The notes under the pieces were generated by a model, which did no database searches, was not told where the DNA came from, and saw only the letters and a program-made list of their open reading frames with translations. A stretch of DNA of 32,788 nt, taken from the IMG/VR virus record IMGVR_UViG_3300017714_000073, positions 1 to 32,788 of that record, one strand, 5' to 3'. Origin of the DNA: a virus. The number at the start of each line of letters is the position of its first letter. The stretch's first letter is position 1. The position numbers were made by a program, and so were the translations under genes. Below, piece after piece: positions 4,901-31,547 of the stretch.

Positions 4901-7900
4901 TCGCTATCATTTACTACCCAAATGTTAAACAAGGCAGGATCTTGACTGTCTTCTTGTCTTTCCCATTCGGCTTCAAGAAATATATTTTGAATACTTGTTA
5001 TATTATTTGTTTGTAATGCACTTGGTAATATTGCTATTGTATTAAAATCAGTATCTCCTAAATCTAAAGATTGTCTAGGAGAAGAAATACGGATTTGAGC
5101 ACCAGCAACCACACTTGCTGTGATATCTGTTATACCTTGTGAAGTAAAATGATTGTTAATGTCATTTATTGCTTCTAAAAATCCAATCTCTACCTGTTCT
5201 GTTGTTTCCGTAGTGGTGTAAGCAGTAGTGTTAAATCCAAATGCAATATTGCCTGCTGCAATAGTCATTGTTAATAAAGGATTATTAATCTCTGTTTTTG
5301 TAAGAATAAGTTGATTATTTGATTGTGTTGCAGTAATATTATCTAAAGAAAATAATTGAAAATTGTTTATCTGATCTAATATTTGTTGCATTGTTAATTG
5401 AGGATATATTGCACCTGATTGAACAACAGCTATTTCTCCTGCTGAATCAAATCCAAGTTCTGTGTTAGTAGAACCTGCTGATAATATTAACTGATCTCCT
5501 GGAGCTGCTCCTGTAAATTCTAATAGTATATGATTGTTAGCATCTAATGTAGCTGTAACATTAGGAACTGAACTTGTGATAAGAGAAACTACTTCTGTCA
5601 TTGTCATTCCAGTATCTACATGCACTAAAACAAATTCTATACTATCTGCTATATTATATTGATTGACATTGTCTAATTCAACTGCTTGACCTGTAAGAGT
5701 AAAATCACTAGATGTTAATGTTGTGCCGTCTACAATAACACTATCAAGTTGATATCCTGTAATACTTAATGCCTGAGTAATAGTGTAAGTGTCAAGTAGG
5801 TCTATAACTGTAGTATGTGTTATTGTAACTTCGATAGAAGTTGTGTCTGTCCAATCAGCAGGATCTTGTGTAATATCAAGAACTTGTCCTGTTAAATTGC
5901 TTGCTGTGATATTTTGAGTTGTTGTAGTTGTATCTGCAAAAGTTATTACAGCCTGTATAGTGTCTACAGTGTATCCTGTAAGAGATGTTGCTATAGTAAC
6001 TTGTTTAGTGTTACCAGTACCAGTAAAATCAGCTGGATGTTGAAATGTTTCAACAATGTTAGGAGGCGTCACACCTACATTCTGTATGGCTGTATTTTCT
6101 GTAAGATTGGCTGGTATATTATTAAAATCAACTGTAGTTCCATTTATAACTATTGCTTTACCTGTAACTGTTAAAAAATCATTTGGTGCAATATTACTTA
6201 AAAGTTGTGCAGGGCCTAGTATACCAGTTCCACTGCTAGCAACTTGAAATGTTAAGACATTTCCATTTATAGAAAGTTGATCTAAGTTGTTTACCACAGG
6301 ATTTGCTACACTACCTGTTGCAACTATATCACTTAATGCTTGACTTGTCTGTGTAAGTGTTACAGGATTATTATCAATTTTTACTACTGTGCCCACTGGA
6401 AAAACAGGAAATCTCTTTACACCAGTGACAGTAATACCATCATTAACACTTGTAAGTCCAGTAGTATCTACTTTACATTTATATAATACAGACTCTCTTC
6501 TTACTATATCACCAAAGCTATAAGTCTTTGTGTCTGACCAATTTTCAATTATAGCATAGTCTGCTGTGCTATCATATACGTCAGTCATTTTTGTTGTATT
6601 AAATGCGTAGTATCTGGCTTCAGTTGATAGAGGACTACCGGCAGTATTTAATTTTGTTTGTGCCTGATCAAAGTCTGCGATGTTAAATTCTATACTATCT
6701 TTGTTTACAAATCTTGAATCATCATTAGTAATTGCAATACTTTTTGTTACACTTGGTTGTTCGGCAAATTCTATAACTTGTGGATTGTTGCCAATTTCAT
6801 TTTGTAATAATTTTATTTCTGTGCTATGTTTTTTTGTTGTGTCTCCAAAGTAACTGTGATTGAACATATATTTTTCAAACACTTGAATATCGTCTGCGCC
6901 TTTAATAAATCTAGCAAGCCTATCTACACTTGCATTTGTGCCAGCTTCTTTTATTGCACCTTGATAAAATTTAGTAATTACATTTGGATCTAGATGTAGA
7001 TTTTCAACCCAATCTCTGTCAATGTTACCTATGCTTATGTCTTTTGCTTTTTTCACATCAGGATTAAATTCTGTTATATCTGTTCTATAATATTCGTTTG
7101 TTTCTTCTACACTACTGTCAAAGTTTTGAACTATATGGTCATCAAATACTAAATGTCCTAGTGCTTTTTTCTCACCATTCCATTCTTTTGTAACACCACC
7201 ACGTGCTATCAATCTATCTTGTCTTGACATTTTTACATCATCAAATAATACATTGTTAAAAATTGTGTTGTTGTTAAACACAAATGCATGTTCAAAGTCA
7301 ACTACTGCAACTGTAATGTTACCAAAAGATTTCTCTTGCTTATTTTCAAATGTTACTTTGTTTTCTTTGCGAGATACTACTAAGTTTTCTTTTAATACAT
7401 CTGATCCATCTCTAATATTAATATTGTTTGCAAAGTAATCAAAAGTTCCTGCTTCACTTACATGACCATGTGTAGAAGTAAACTCTATAAATTTTCCTAA
7501 GTCTAATGTAATCTCTTGACCTTCTTCTGCTCTCACAGTCCATCTTACAAAAGTATTTGCGTAAGCGTCTTTGCTTGTGGCAAATTTAAATCCGTTTTGT
7601 TCTAAAAATGCAAAGTAGCCTCTAATGAAAGTATACACGTCTTGTATTTTGTTTAACACTGATCCATATTCTAAGATACTATGATTTGTTACAAACTTAG
7701 AATATTTTCTTATAACTCTATTTGATACTTCAATATCTGTGAAATTATTTTTATTAGGTTCTAGGAACATAAATTCTTGTCTGTTAGTGCTTGAACCTTT
7801 TATTTGATATCCGTCTGGTTCTTTCTTAATTGTGATTTGACTTGCATTAATAAATGTATGAGGATATCCATTGTGCATTACAATTTTGTAATCGTTATCA

Positions 7901-27417: not shown

Positions 27418-27429
27418 GCTAATACAGGC

Positions 27430-27775
27430 TGAAGGCTCAGTTTGGTCGGGATTGCTCGACTCACCTTGAGATTACACATCTGTGTGATCAGATCCTGGTG
27501 TTGCCACAATGTCAAAGCACTGGTTTGACAAACCAAAAAGAGTGAGCTCTCCTGGAAAATTGGAACTCACAGGTAGCCCAAAGTCGCATACTATGGCAAT
27601 GGGTGGTCCTGCGTTGCTTAAGAGCAGCATGTAATAGAGGTACAGCGTAACCGCCTCTCCTAAGTGTAAAATTAGGTTTGCTATAGTATGTGTAGAGGGA
27701 CGTCTAATCCAAGACTTTCAGTTTCACCTAGCCGTTAGTTGGCTAAGTGTGACTGAAACATCATACCAAGTTACC
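27430..27775 (+). ncRNA. Structured RNA candidate, about 340 nt, unknown family
   Basis: The stretch has no protein frame and is visibly richer in G and C than its surroundings. Complementary segments seen by eye: closing helix 27439-27446 with 27765-27772 (8 pairs, two G-U); 27471-27477 with 27482-27488; 27501-27506 with 27594-27599; 27521-27526 with 27530-27535; 27542-27546 with 27566-27570; 27587-27594 with 27683-27690 (8 perfect pairs). The last of these encloses hairpins 27613-27628, 27636-27658 and 27659-27676. A long hairpin 27716-27758 pairs TTTCAGT/ACTGAAA, CAC/GTG and TAGCC/GGCTA. Two single-base helix ends compete at 27594. G-U pairs in at least four helices would be A-C mismatches in the opposite transcript, so the plus strand is favoured. 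No tmRNA, RNase P, 6S or tRNA landmarks were found. No clear own promoter; read-through from the gp55-gp46 operon is possible. Confidence 0.7.
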
Positions 27776-27778
27776 TCG

Positions 27779-27785
27779 ATAAATA
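27779..27785 (+). promoter_or_regulatory. T4-like late promoter box (ATAAATA)
   Basis: GATAAATAT on the plus strand, directly after the 3' side of the structured RNA and about 130 bases before the next gene. It matches the core seen before other late genes here. If used, it gives the 27916 gene a leader of about 125 bases. Confidence 0.5.
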
Positions 27786-27915
27786 TCAATATAGAAATCA
27801 TTTCTTTAGTAATAACTATTCTTTAAGTATTACAAGCGATAGCAAAAAACATCGAATAAAGCGATAGCTTTATGAAGATGATGATGTCGTAGACATCAAG
27901 AAAACAGAGACATAT
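27786..27915 (+). promoter_or_regulatory. Leader region with hairpins upstream of the 27916 gene
   Basis: AT-rich DNA without a gene. It contains a hairpin at 27856-27873 (ATAAAGC/GCTTTAT around a GATA loop), a second at 27883-27897 (GATGTC/GACATC around GTA), and a weaker GTAATA/TATTAC pair. AGCGATAGC occurs twice, at 27835-27843 and within the first hairpin (27860-27868). Only a weak AGAGA stands before the ATG. The second hairpin ends 18 bases before the start codon, so it could affect ribosome access. Confidence 0.4.
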
Positions 27916-28356
27916 ATGAACTTCCAAGAATTCCAGAACAAATTTCTAGAGTGGACAGAAAATGAAATTGAAGCTAAGAAGTTGGATGGATTTCCCATTT
28001 GTCCTTTTGCAAGGAAAGCACGATTACAAAATAAAATTCAATTTATTGATGCTAGAGATAATCTTACACAATCATATGAAACATTTGACAAGGAAATCTA
28101 TGAGATAGGAATTGCTTGGGTTGATGGATGTAACATGTCTGAGGTTGAAACTATAATTGAACAACAGATGCAAAAACACAATGATTTGTTGTATTTTACC
28201 AGTACAACAACCAGCGGACATTTTGCAAAGAACTTTACAAATTGTGTTTTTATTCAATTGAGAGATGATTTGACAGAGAAACGCAAGTATCTACACACAA
28301 CAAAATACTATGATAGTTGGCCAATAGACTATTATAAACTTATAACATCTGTTTAG
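27916..28356 (+). CDS. Hypothetical protein, 146 aa
   Basis: Begins MNFQEFQNKFLEWTENEIEA and contains FPICPFARKARLQNKIQFID, an aromatic-rich pattern with one CPFA motif, then an acidic WVDGCNMSEVETIIEQQMQ helix and a C-terminal HTTKYYDSWPIDYY segment. No family is recognised and there is no membrane or export signal. The CPFA...ARKARLQ segment suggests a conserved small phage protein, but I cannot name it. The gene has a long structured leader and a weak ribosome site. Its end overlaps the end of the opposite-strand gp26 frameshift ORF by 17 bases. Codon use is like that of its neighbours, so it is probably real. Confidence 0.65.
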   Translation: MNFQEFQNKFLEWTENEIEAKKLDGFPICPFARKARLQNKIQFIDARDNLTQSYETFDKEIYEIGIAWVDGCNMSEVETIIEQQMQKHNDLLYFTSTTTSGHFAKNFTNCVFIQLRDDLTEKRKYLHTTKYYDSWPIDYYKLITSV

Positions 28357-28575
28357 CGTTACCGCTCATTCTTTCTGCACGTTTGTTAAGCCTTTCTACC
28401 AGTAAAACAATACTTGGCAAAGGCATCTGAATAATATCCTGATAACTGAATGCGCCATCACTGTTTATCACGATGTCGAGATAATTTTCTTCTAATTTTT
28501 TGTGTTGGTCTGTGTATTTCTTTAATATATCAGGAATTTGTTCAGGCTGACTGGTAGCTATCAGCCTGCGAAAAA
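28340..28575 (-). CDS. -1 frame extension of gp26 (frameshift product part, 76 codons)
   Basis: An open frame runs from the slippery site at the end of gp26 to TAA at 28342-28340. After the last in-frame stop upstream there is no ATG, GTG or TTG before the conserved-looking part; the first ATG is 49 codons in. The product part begins RRLIATSQPEQIPDILKK, continues KLEENYLDIVINSDGAFSYQ and ends with a helix (VLLVERLNKRAERMSGNAKQ). A frameshift would give gp26 residues 1-277 joined to these 76 residues, about 353 in all. The position and size match the T part of a G/GT tail-assembly chaperone pair. It may correspond to T4 gp51 by position, but T4 gp51 is larger and I see no similarity. The gene overlaps the opposite 27916-28356 gene tail to tail. 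Confidence 0.75.
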
Positions 28576-28579
28576 ATTT
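28543..28579 (-). promoter_or_regulatory. Programmed -1 frameshift signal (slippery site and hairpin)
   Basis: On the minus strand, in the gp26 frame, the codons ACA AAT TTT TTC give the heptamers A AAT TTT (28579-28573) and T TTT TTC (28576-28570), both of X XXY YYZ form. Four bases after the first heptamer, a perfect 8-bp stem begins: CAGGCTGA (28568-28561) with TCAGCCTG (28550-28543) around a 10-base loop. The gp26 stop codon lies inside the stem. Slipping by -1 enters the 76-codon frame. Confidence 0.8.
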
Positions 28580-29400
28580 GTAATATCTAGCTCTACTTCA
28601 GTTTGCCAAGAGTGTTCACAACTTTCACATGTAATAGTAAAATTGTTGTTTACACCATCGTTACTTAGTTCGTCTACTTTGGCTTTGATTATTTCGTAAT
28701 CTTTGCTAGTAATAGTCTTGAGCCATTCTCTGATCGTTTCGTTGTCACTTACTGTTTCGTTATCACTACCAGGTGTCCTAACACTATCTACACAGTTTGT
28801 TACTAGATCAACAGTTAATTCGGCCATTTCTACAAAAGTTTTTCCAAAAAGTTGTTGACGTGATTGGTCGTCAATGTTCTGATTTTGTAATCCCTCTATC
28901 ATTTTTACTTGCTTGATTTGTTGAATTTGTATAGTATTTCTATCTTCCAGGCTGTAAGGTTTAAGTGTAACTTCAAAACCTTCGTTTATTGTAACTATGT
29001 TATCTGGCTTTGTCTTTGATGTAGCAGTATCTATAATACTTTGACAGTTTACCGCAACACTGTTTACATGTTCACATTTTTCGCAAGTCACTTCTATTTC
29101 TATTTCACTGCCATAACTTGCTTGTCTTATTGCTAACATTATAACCATTAAATCGTTTACAGGTATTTGACTTGGGTTAGGAATGTCTGGACAACAACTC
29201 TGAATTAGACTCACACTAGCTTCACCGTTAAACAGTGCATCAGGTGTTTTTGTAATTAATTCATCACGTGCGGTCATTGCATAAACAGCTAATTCGCCGT
29301 CTACACTTAGTTTTGGTGCAGGATTGTAGTATTTTCCACCACTTGGTAGATCAATATATAGACTAGGTTTCCTATATGCACTAATTAGGGGATTACTCAT
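28561..29400 (-). CDS. 26: Baseplate hub assembly protein gp26
   Basis: A 279-residue protein. MSNPLISAYRKPSLYIDLPS, the GGKYY and YAMTARDELITKTPDALFNG segments, and IQSCCPDIPNP are the usual beginning of gp26 proteins of T4-like phages. Two CxxC pairs (C106/C109 in TCEKCEH, C258/C261 in TCESCEH) are 149 residues apart and could bind one zinc ion between them. T4 gp26 has 208 residues. GGAG lies nine bases before the ATG. The gene is on the minus strand between plus-strand genes and is headed by a late box at 29436-29442. Its last codons form the frameshift site, so two products are expected. gp26 is needed for hub assembly in T4; here a chaperone role for the tape measure is inferred. Confidence 0.88.
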   Translation of the reverse strand: MSNPLISAYRKPSLYIDLPSGGKYYNPAPKLSVDGELAVYAMTARDELITKTPDALFNGEASVSLIQSCCPDIPNPSQIPVNDLMVIMLAIRQASYGSEIEIEVTCEKCEHVNSVAVNCQSIIDTATSKTKPDNIVTINEGFEVTLKPYSLEDRNTIQIQQIKQVKMIEGLQNQNIDDQSRQQLFGKTFVEMAELTVDLVTNCVDSVRTPGSDNETVSDNETIREWLKTITSKDYEIIKAKVDELSNDGVNNNFTITCESCEHSWQTEVELDITNFFAG

Positions 29401-29471: not shown

Positions 29472-31547
29472 ATGCAAGAAGAAATATTAGACATATATCA
29501 ACAGTATCCTTGGGCAAGCGAGCTTACCGCTGACCAAATAGCCAGTGCTATTTCTAGTGGTCCAAATAGTAGACGCAAAATTGCCATGAGTATTACTAGT
29601 GCAATTAGTCCAGCAGCTCTACAACACATGTCCGACGAGCTAAACAAGCAAAAACGTAGTGAAAAGAAAGAATCACAAGCCAAAAAAGACCTAGCAACCG
29701 CAATGGCTGGTACTCAACGTGCAATTATGGTGCAAAACGTTGATGGACTTGGTGCAATGACTGGTTTGTTTGAACAATTAGCAACAGCAGCCTCAGAATT
29801 AGGTGTAGGAAGTGCAGTTGGCGGTGCATTTGGTAGTTTAACTGGTAGTAAAAATAAAATTATCAAGGGAATAGGCAATATTGGGTCTGGAGTAGCTGAT
29901 GTTGCTAGCAGTACACTTGGTATGGCAGCCGGTGTTGCTACATTTGTTGCATCATTTATAAACAGTCAAGACAAATTATTGAAAACAATGATAGATGTTG
30001 GTTTAGCTGATGCAAATATGGAACTGTTAACTGGTTTACGTAGAGATGCAGCTAGCCTAGGCATGGGTTTTGACGAGTATGCAAAAGTTTTACAAGTAAG
30101 CAGTAACCTAATAGGTGCAGGACATGATAGTGCAATACAAGGTGCTACAATTTTTGGAGAATTGGCAAATACAGTAGCAAGAGATGACAGTATCAATAAA
30201 TTTGGATATAGAACAAGCGAATTGACCTTGAGATTGGCTACCACAGCAGATGCATTATATAGAAGTAATCAAATTAACAGTTTGGATGCTAAAGCACAAC
30301 AAAAAATTATTGATTTGTTTACAACAACCAACGAAATTGCATTAGGTTTAGCATCAACTACTGGCGAAAACAGGATGAAACTGTTAGACGAGTTAGAAGA
30401 ACAGAGACAAGATAGAGACCTTAACACTAGCTTTGCAATTGCACAAAATCAATACATAGAAGAAAGAGGCCCAGTAGCATTTGAGAACCTAAAAAATAGT
30501 TCAGTAATGTATCTTGCAACACTTGCTAGTAGATTTGGCAAAGATAGTCCAATGTATCAAGAAATTGAAAAAACTATGAAGGGTGCAATCTATGATATCA
30601 ACTATGATCAAAATATAATCAACAACATGACGCCAGAATTGGTGCAATTGTTCAATGAAGTTGGTGGTGGGGCATTACAGGAGTTTATCAAACAAGGTAA
30701 TGAAATGCTCGCTGGAAACACAACACAAGAAGGTGCAGTAATTGATACCAGTAGATTGTTGGGAATTTTTAGTGATCAGTCTGATGCGGGAATAAGAAGG
30801 TTTGCAAGTGTTGATCCCATAACTGAGGCAGCTGCAAGAGCTATGGCAGCGGCAAGGGTGGCCAACGATGCCGCAAAAGATTTGGATATGGAACAAATTA
30901 GGAAAAGTATTGAAGAGACAAACAATGCAATTCCCGAAGCAAGCAAAGCTATAAAAGCAATTGACGATACTGCTATTGCTTTAACAACAACACTTGAGGC
31001 TATTTTGCCTGGCATTGATACAATGGATGAAACTTTAGACCTAGTGTATGGTGCTATGAATTTTACAGAGAAATTAATCACAGCTTTAGGTAAAATTATG
31101 GGTATTGATGTTGGCAGTGGACAGCGTAAGGTATCAGATATTAGAAAACAGATAAAAGATGCGTTAATAAAAGATGTTGTAATATATCAACCAGGTTCTT
31201 CTGAATATAATTCAGCAAATCCCCTAATGAGGAAATCACCATCGGGTAATATTACAGCATTAAGTTATCAAAACTTTATTACTACCACACGAGACTTTTT
31301 AAGTGATAATGCAATAGGCGGCGCAGATACTAATACTCTTACAGATAGAGTCGATGTGTTAAATGAAATGAAATCAAAGGTTGCTGCTTTGATGCAAAAT
31401 CCAACGGGAAGAACCAACAGCCGTAGAAGACCGCTTACTCAAGAAGAGATAGCATTATATAATCAGCAGTTGAGAATACTGGATGAACAAATTAATAAAG
31501 TAAATACAAGACTTACTGATCAAGAATCAGTAACGGAGACTATGTAA
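29472..31547 (+). CDS. Tape-measure-like tail structural protein, 691 aa
   Basis: Starts MQEEILDIYQQYPWASELTA. Residues 90-165 are rich in Gly, Ala and Ser with hydrophobic runs (GSAVGGAFGSLTG, GSGVADVASSTLGMAAGVA, TFVASFIN), followed by long predicted helices (Ala-rich AARAMAAARVANDAAKDLD, EETNNAIPEASKAIKAID). Such Gly/Ala-rich hydrophobic segments plus helices are typical of tape-measure proteins, which set tail length. T4 gp29, the tape measure, has 590 residues. The neighbour gp26/frameshift gene supports the role, since G/GT chaperones flank tape-measure genes elsewhere. It lacks a good ribosome site; the late box at 29415-29421 precedes it. The next gene is a paralogue overlapping by one base. 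The tape-measure call is inference, a virion role is likely. Confidence 0.6.
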   Translation: MQEEILDIYQQYPWASELTADQIASAISSGPNSRRKIAMSITSAISPAALQHMSDELNKQKRSEKKESQAKKDLATAMAGTQRAIMVQNVDGLGAMTGLFEQLATAASELGVGSAVGGAFGSLTGSKNKIIKGIGNIGSGVADVASSTLGMAAGVATFVASFINSQDKLLKTMIDVGLADANMELLTGLRRDAASLGMGFDEYAKVLQVSSNLIGAGHDSAIQGATIFGELANTVARDDSINKFGYRTSELTLRLATTADALYRSNQINSLDAKAQQKIIDLFTTTNEIALGLASTTGENRMKLLDELEEQRQDRDLNTSFAIAQNQYIEERGPVAFENLKNSSVMYLATLASRFGKDSPMYQEIEKTMKGAIYDINYDQNIINNMTPELVQLFNEVGGGALQEFIKQGNEMLAGNTTQEGAVIDTSRLLGIFSDQSDAGIRRFASVDPITEAAARAMAAARVANDAAKDLDMEQIRKSIEETNNAIPEASKAIKAIDDTAIALTTTLEAILPGIDTMDETLDLVYGAMNFTEKLITALGKIMGIDVGSGQRKVSDIRKQIKDALIKDVVIYQPGSSEYNSANPLMRKSPSGNITALSYQNFITTTRDFLSDNAIGGADTNTLTDRVDVLNEMKSKVAALMQNPTGRTNSRRRPLTQEEIALYNQQLRILDEQINKVNTRLTDQESVTETM

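Follow-up and report, generated by a model that had tools for sequence, protein, structure and literature searches.

The gp26-like gene and the −1 frame at its 3' end

The window, by which we mean the whole stretch of viral DNA that was analysed (32,788 nucleotides), carries on its minus strand a gene whose product is homologous to T4 gp26 (Table 1). This protein matched the Pfam family PF12322 (T4_baseplate) with an E-value of 1.2e-23 and a score of 84.4 bits, above the curated cut-off of 24.5, and matched phrog_150 with an E-value of 2.8e-25. A Foldseek search with an AlphaFold2 model of the protein (mean pLDDT 79) returned no PDB match. The open reading frame closes with the minus-strand codons GAT ATT ACA AAT TTT TTC GCA GGC TGA, in which the heptamers A AAT TTT and T TTT TTC overlap, both in the X XXY YYZ phase of the gene. 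The initial annotation had noted two in-frame slippery heptamers at the end of gp26, and the positions and phase of both were confirmed in the sequence.

Table 1. Features at the gp26-like locus of the window
Feature	Positions	Strand	Basis
gp26-like gene, 279 aa; 0-frame short product, TAC-N / lambda G-like	28561..29400	−	ATG to TGA; PF12322, phrog_150
Slippery heptamer T TTT TTC; 0 frame (AA)T TTT TTC	28576-28570	−	sequence and conservation in relatives
Overlapping second heptamer A AAT TTT	28579-28573	−	sequence; confined to the window group (L001-L003)
Putative stimulatory hairpin across the gp26 stop codon; 8 Watson-Crick pairs and one U-G	28543..28568	−	RNAfold
Post-slip extension in the −1 frame (CGC AGG CTG ... 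TTA TAA), 76 residues; GT-like T domain / gp51 C-terminal	28340..28570	−	open frame, pN/pS
Predicted gp51-like long product, a frameshift fusion of 353 aa	28340..29400	−	computed: 29400-28571 joined to 28570-28340, −1 slip

Behind the short gene lies an open, coding and start-less −1 frame that would yield a longer form of the protein. It comprises 78 codons including both Phe codons and ends at TAA (28342-28340); the 76 codons originally given are correct when counted after both Phe, but not when the pair is included. Neither ATG nor TTG occurs in the first 50 codons of the frame, the first ATG being codon 51. The earlier statement that ATG, GTG and TTG were all missing from the first 48 codons holds for ATG and TTG, but codon 36 of the −1 frame is an in-frame GTG; this GTG is absent from the three relatives L001-L003. 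The computed length of the fusion agrees with the previous estimate of about 353 residues, and its predicted junction reads ...DITNFFRRLIATSQ.

A hairpin is predicted directly downstream of the heptamers. Its arms are CAGGCTGA (28568-28561) and TCAGCCTG (28550-28543), separated by 10 nt, to which RNAfold analysis of 70 nt added the U-G pair, with a minimum free energy of −15.7 and a z-score of −3.7 relative to dinucleotide shuffles. The original description of an 8-bp stem with a 10-base loop, beginning four bases past the first heptamer and containing the gp26 stop, proved exact, but the stem begins only 1 nt past T TTT TTC. This distance from the conserved heptamer is closer than usual and counts against the frameshift reading.

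The genes on either side give the locus its context. The −1 extension overlaps at its end, by 17 nt, the 3' end of a convergent gene on the plus strand (27916-28356), which encodes a 146-aa member of phrog_10325 (unknown function). Between the convergent-side genes there are also about 500 bases (27418-27915) without a notable open reading frame; no tRNA or Rfam match was found in this stretch, which could be an unannotated RNA or regulatory region. On the other side, the gene at 29472-31547 encodes a protein of 691 aa and is divergent from the gp26-like gene. A large virion structural protein occupies the equivalent divergent place in RaK2, BF and PA5oct, and that of BF gave weak matches to tape-measure PHROGs (E 3e-6); the product of 29472-31547 may be the tape measure of the window's group. 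The initial annotation had likened gp26 to a layout found beside the tape-measure gene in lambda and many siphoviruses, a point that we correct here: the neighbour is divergent, in the jumbo phages as in the window, is not a proven tape measure, and does not form one operon with a gp26-like gene directly upstream of it. Because of this divergent neighbour, operon membership differs from that of lambda G/GT; the working analogy stands.

Conservation of the slip site and selection on the −1 frame

Homologous loci were collected from public viral contigs, named jumbo phages, cyanophages and one pelagiphage, using single proteins as queries. A diverse set of 25 loci consisted of the window, 4 viral contigs, 17 jumbo phages, the cyanophages P-SSM2 and S-PM2, and the pelagiphage HTVC008M. 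The second set consisted of 84 loci from viral contigs, nearly all of them cyanophage-like, with one locus (L133) common to both sets. Two further viral contigs (L005:4001-4258 and L006:2080-2337) showed a weak (32%) partial match to gp26.

All 21 of the loci tested first, which were the window, marine contigs and the 17 named jumbo phages, had an in-frame heptamer followed by an open −1 frame, and both elements were also present in P-SSM2, S-PM2 and HTVC008M. Across the diverse set, 25/25 phages had a correctly phased T_TTT_TTY no more than 43 nt from the gp26 stop, and the −1 frame was open for about 60-82 codons, whereas only 2 other in-frame T_TTT_TTY sites were present in the 6875 codons of the 25 gp26 genes. 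T TTT TTC was likewise found in every one of the 84 viral-contig loci, four of the −1 frames there ending at the contig end. The Phe-Phe pair is preceded by N, S, H, R, A, Y or D, yet the third base of the codon for this residue is always T. From observed codon usage the chance probability of this invariant T is approximately 1e-11, a calculation that assumes 25 independent sites and is overstated since the phages are related. The final C of the heptamer was kept in 22 of the 25 diverse loci and in 84/84 viral-contig loci. Note that it is T TTT TTC that is deeply conserved, the A AAT TTT being confined to the window's own group. As judged from these counts, conservation of the slip site and the −1 frame is beyond chance.

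The hairpin has a different distribution. Strong hairpins were predicted in the window, P-SSM2 (z −3.1), S-PM2 (z −4.6), XacN1 and Atu_ph07, the z-scores again being RNAfold values relative to shuffles, and about half of the diverse set had z-scores below −1.5. No hairpin was predicted at the loci of BF, RaK2, XbC2, Kaldavass, Hallingskeid, Munch and HTVC008M (z 0.3 to 1.3). An alignment of slip site, stem and −1 frame across relatives had been proposed as a check on the initial annotation; slip site and frame are conserved in such a comparison, but no stem is predicted in seven of the lineages sampled. The hairpin as a universal part of the signal was rejected, several lineages, among them those of the BF/XbC2/Munch type, having no predicted structure. 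In 35 of 36 cyanophage sequences both arms of the hairpin are kept and their synonymous codons hardly vary; with arms so nearly invariant and few compensatory changes, covariation neither proves nor refutes the hairpin. Close to the window, the hairpin is intact in L002 and L003 and one pair short in L001. The stretch that starts at the ACA codon and takes in the hairpin is identical in the window and L001-L003 except at two positions, while further on about one third of the codons differ at the third position, and this near-identity fits an extra RNA constraint in the window group.

We also examined selection on the extension by comparing the window with its three close relatives (L001-L003) over the 69 codons past the first arm of the hairpin. 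In the −1 frame pN/pS was 0.05-0.20, compared to 0.7-3.1 in the other two frames. These ratios indicate that purifying selection is acting on the −1 frame in the window's close relatives.

Relationship of the extension to T4 gp51

Among phages with 24-30% overall identity to the window, protein homology in the extension (FFR.xLLxxxPEEI) begins exactly at the slip site, and the extension closes with a motif like YE..L.MP..ER..(V)..NKK. The start of homology coincides with the slip site throughout the diverse set and the 84 viral-contig loci. T4 gp51 is itself a PF12322 protein with approximately 48 further residues that gp26 lacks. The cyanophage extension could be compared directly with those residues. 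A 57-aa open reading frame of P-SSM2 named 'gp51' matched the gp51-only end of phrog_150 (residues 239-278, E 3.5e-7) and also phrog_634; a hidden Markov model of the cyanophage extension found 6/6 gp51 proteins with E-values of 6e-12 to 5e-3, shuffled sequences scoring no better than 0.14; and hhalign aligned the cyanophage extension to the gp51 C-terminus at 97%. By these profile comparisons the cyanophage extension clearly corresponds to the C-terminal part of T4 gp51.

For the jumbo phages and the window the relationship is less direct. A model of the jumbo/window extension found the HTVC008M extension (E 2e-5), but for a jumbo-only model gp51 was barely separated from shuffled sequences. 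The jumbo extension alone gave hhalign values of 48-60% against the gp51 C-terminus (P 9e-5 at 60%) with hmmsearch near noise, and whole fusions aligned to gp51 through the extension at 82% (E 1e-5). We rate the link of the jumbo/window extension to the gp51 C-terminus, with which it is positionally consistent, as moderate, because its support comes from profile-profile comparison and from the bridge via the cyanophage and pelagiphage extensions. The fusion would accordingly be a long family member with a gp51 C-terminal extension, clearly so in the cyanophages and moderately so in the jumbo phages and the window (hhalign 60-82%).

The extension has been handled variously in public annotation. 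Within the GenBank jumbo-phage and cyanophage records examined it is unannotated or appears as a separate hypothetical protein or 'gp51', and none of the phage records examined annotates a joined CDS of gp26 and the extension. The P-SSM2 'gp51, baseplate hub assembly catalyst' (L136:2718-2891; P-SSM2 7217-7390) is the −1 extension of gp26 begun at an internal ATG, and for this reason that annotation is probably wrong. Similarly, phrog_18291 (59 aa, unknown function) is the extension of Serratia BF-type jumbo phages taken from an internal codon.

Gene number differs between T4 and the other phages. Two PF12322 genes are present in T4, one on each strand, and a single one in P-SSM2, S-PM2, HTVC008M and every complete jumbo genome that gave a match; SCTP-2 had no PF12322 gene above the Pfam threshold, and tblastn found one homologue in that genome. 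The single copy in the window is a count for this 32.8-kb fragment only, which does not hold short and long forms as two separate genes in the T4 arrangement. T4 gp26 ends in GAG TTC TTT GAG and has no slippery run. From the gene counts and the end of T4 gp26, it appears that one gene with a slip stands in for the two T4 genes.

Proposed frameshifting and its alternatives

The best explanation of the locus, and one that we consider highly probable from the sequence comparisons, is that −1 ribosomal frameshifting yields both a gp26-like (lambda G-like) and a gp51-like (lambda GT-like) tail assembly chaperone from one gene. Most ribosomes would terminate at TGA to give the short chaperone. A minority would slip back by one base on T TTT TTC, with tRNA-Phe in the P and A sites, and bypass the stop to add the extension; the overlapping A AAT TTT perhaps assists, as may the downstream hairpin, which would be stimulatory where it is present. 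T4 gp26 and lambda G would be the counterparts of the short form, T4 gp51 and lambda GT those of the long form. By analogy, the short form would coat the tape-measure protein in many copies, a few long copies would recruit tail-tube subunits, and both would leave before the virion is completed. We infer slippage in vivo, the rate of slippage and the chaperone role from these features of the sequence. The programmed −1 frameshift proposed in the initial annotation, and its assignment of gp26 as G-like and the fusion as GT-like, are both well supported: by conservation of the slip site, the open frame and its protein sequence in more than 100 relatives, by purifying selection, and by the homology that ties the extension to the portion of gp51 missing from gp26.

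Several other readings were weighed against this one. If the −1 frame were a separate small gene that ribosomes enter by coupled re-initiation close to the end of gp26, with an incidental T run, one could account for the cyanophage ATG at codon 6 (5 codons past the slip site), for the separate 57-aa 'gp51' listed in GenBank, and for the ATG that overlaps the gp26 stop in several jumbo phages. Yet the whole 75-codon frame of PA5oct contains no ATG, GTG or TTG, and that of RaK2 has no start codon before an ATG at codon 33; together with the late ATG of the window, this indicates that independent initiation can serve some lineages, such as the cyanophages, but not all. Because protein homology also begins at FFR, upstream of any start, and the heptamer is conserved at the nucleotide level, we regard re-initiation as quite improbable. 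Every relative carries a homopolymer run, as would be expected if RNA polymerase slipped on it to produce mixed mRNAs, but the run is only six to eight Ts and transcriptional slippage usually needs longer ones. The strict phase of the heptamer and the retention of its terminal C are requirements of tRNA slippage and not of polymerase slippage, and downstream hairpins in about half of the loci also argue against a transcriptional origin, which we hold to be highly improbable. A single base at −1 would restore one open reading frame, raising the question of a longer gp51-like gene that has decayed or been mis-sequenced; more than 100 genomes, sequenced independently of one another, share the identical frame break at the same codon, and purifying selection acts on either side of it, which refutes a pseudogene or assembly error and leaves that reading with next to no probability.

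The frameshift might also be real and its products be structural parts of the baseplate hub. GenBank and PHROG names include 'baseplate hub', and the CBB homologue is annotated 'structural protein', which is unexpected for a chaperone. On the other hand, the annotation of T4 gp51 calls it an assembly chaperone; 'ESI-MS/MS' notes accompany the portal and a neighbouring structural protein of PA5oct but not its gp26 homologue, an annotation hint; and a passage in PMC10885494 cites Vladimirov 2022 for short and long chaperone genes in T4-like phages. We consider a structural role unlikely.

Frameshifting into two tail assembly chaperones has precedents with which the window can be compared. The lambda-type frameshift is textbook knowledge, and Xu, Hendrix and Duda reportedly described in 2004 a conserved tail-chaperone frameshift in siphophages and myophages. 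As in lambda G/GT and the chaperones of other siphophages and myophages, a short tail gene in the window closes with a slippery heptamer, past which a −1 frame lacking its own start would give a minor long form. Unlike the lambda case, this gene has T TTT TTC as its heptamer and is not placed immediately ahead of a proven tape-measure gene, and it showed no detectable sequence homology to lambda G. With T4 gp26 and gp51 (PF12322; TAC-N and TAC-NC) the resemblance is one of homology: PF12322 and phrog_150 unite the short product with both T4 proteins, and the gp51-like C-terminal extension of the predicted long product starts at the same place. The difference lies in the layout, T4 having two genes, one on each strand, and no slippery run at the end of gp26, and the window having one gene with a predicted −1 slip. 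The tail assembly chaperones of T4-like phages are said to have been identified by Vladimirov et al. in 2022, who reportedly proposed a mechanism other than frameshifting. A 2016 review of frameshifting (PMC5009743) names T4 as an exception to the tail-chaperone frameshift. In Pakpunavirus Adele and the Vandenendeviridae and Andersonviridae (PMC12846349), TAC-N ends in a polyT slip motif (GTTTTT) and the family-wide conserved −1 frame was argued from sequence alone; these belong to another phage family and are likened to the window by motif and frame layout. The statement in PMC12846349 (2025) that cites Vladimirov 2022 describes polyT −1 signals as known in TAC-N genes of T4-like phages, and that in PMC10885494 attributes to some T4-like phages a short gene together with a long, fused one. 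On the strength of these two statements, frameshifting in some T4-like members has probably been reported already. According to the initial annotation such a system is not known to be described for T4-type gp26, but the idea is not entirely new, the tail assembly chaperones of T4-like phages having been in print already. No published frameshift in a jumbo-phage gp26 was found in the literature searched.

The loci compared here indicate that conservation of the frameshift signal is broad across T4-related phages and unannotated in the records examined. We lean toward the view that the single, deeply conserved frameshift gene of cyanophages, pelagiphages, jumbo phages and the marine group is ancestral, and that T4, the textbook exception, is derived, a duplication having fixed the short and the long product as the separate genes gp26 and gp51. 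On the sequence evidence, the greater part of the T4-related phages sampled beyond the T4 family proper would frameshift, and at one invariant site. Frameshifting would also explain the 'hypothetical' and stray 'gp51' open reading frames in cyanophage and jumbo-phage genomes, providing a direct route to their correct annotation, and would offer a natural before/after comparison of how two genes replace one frameshift gene.
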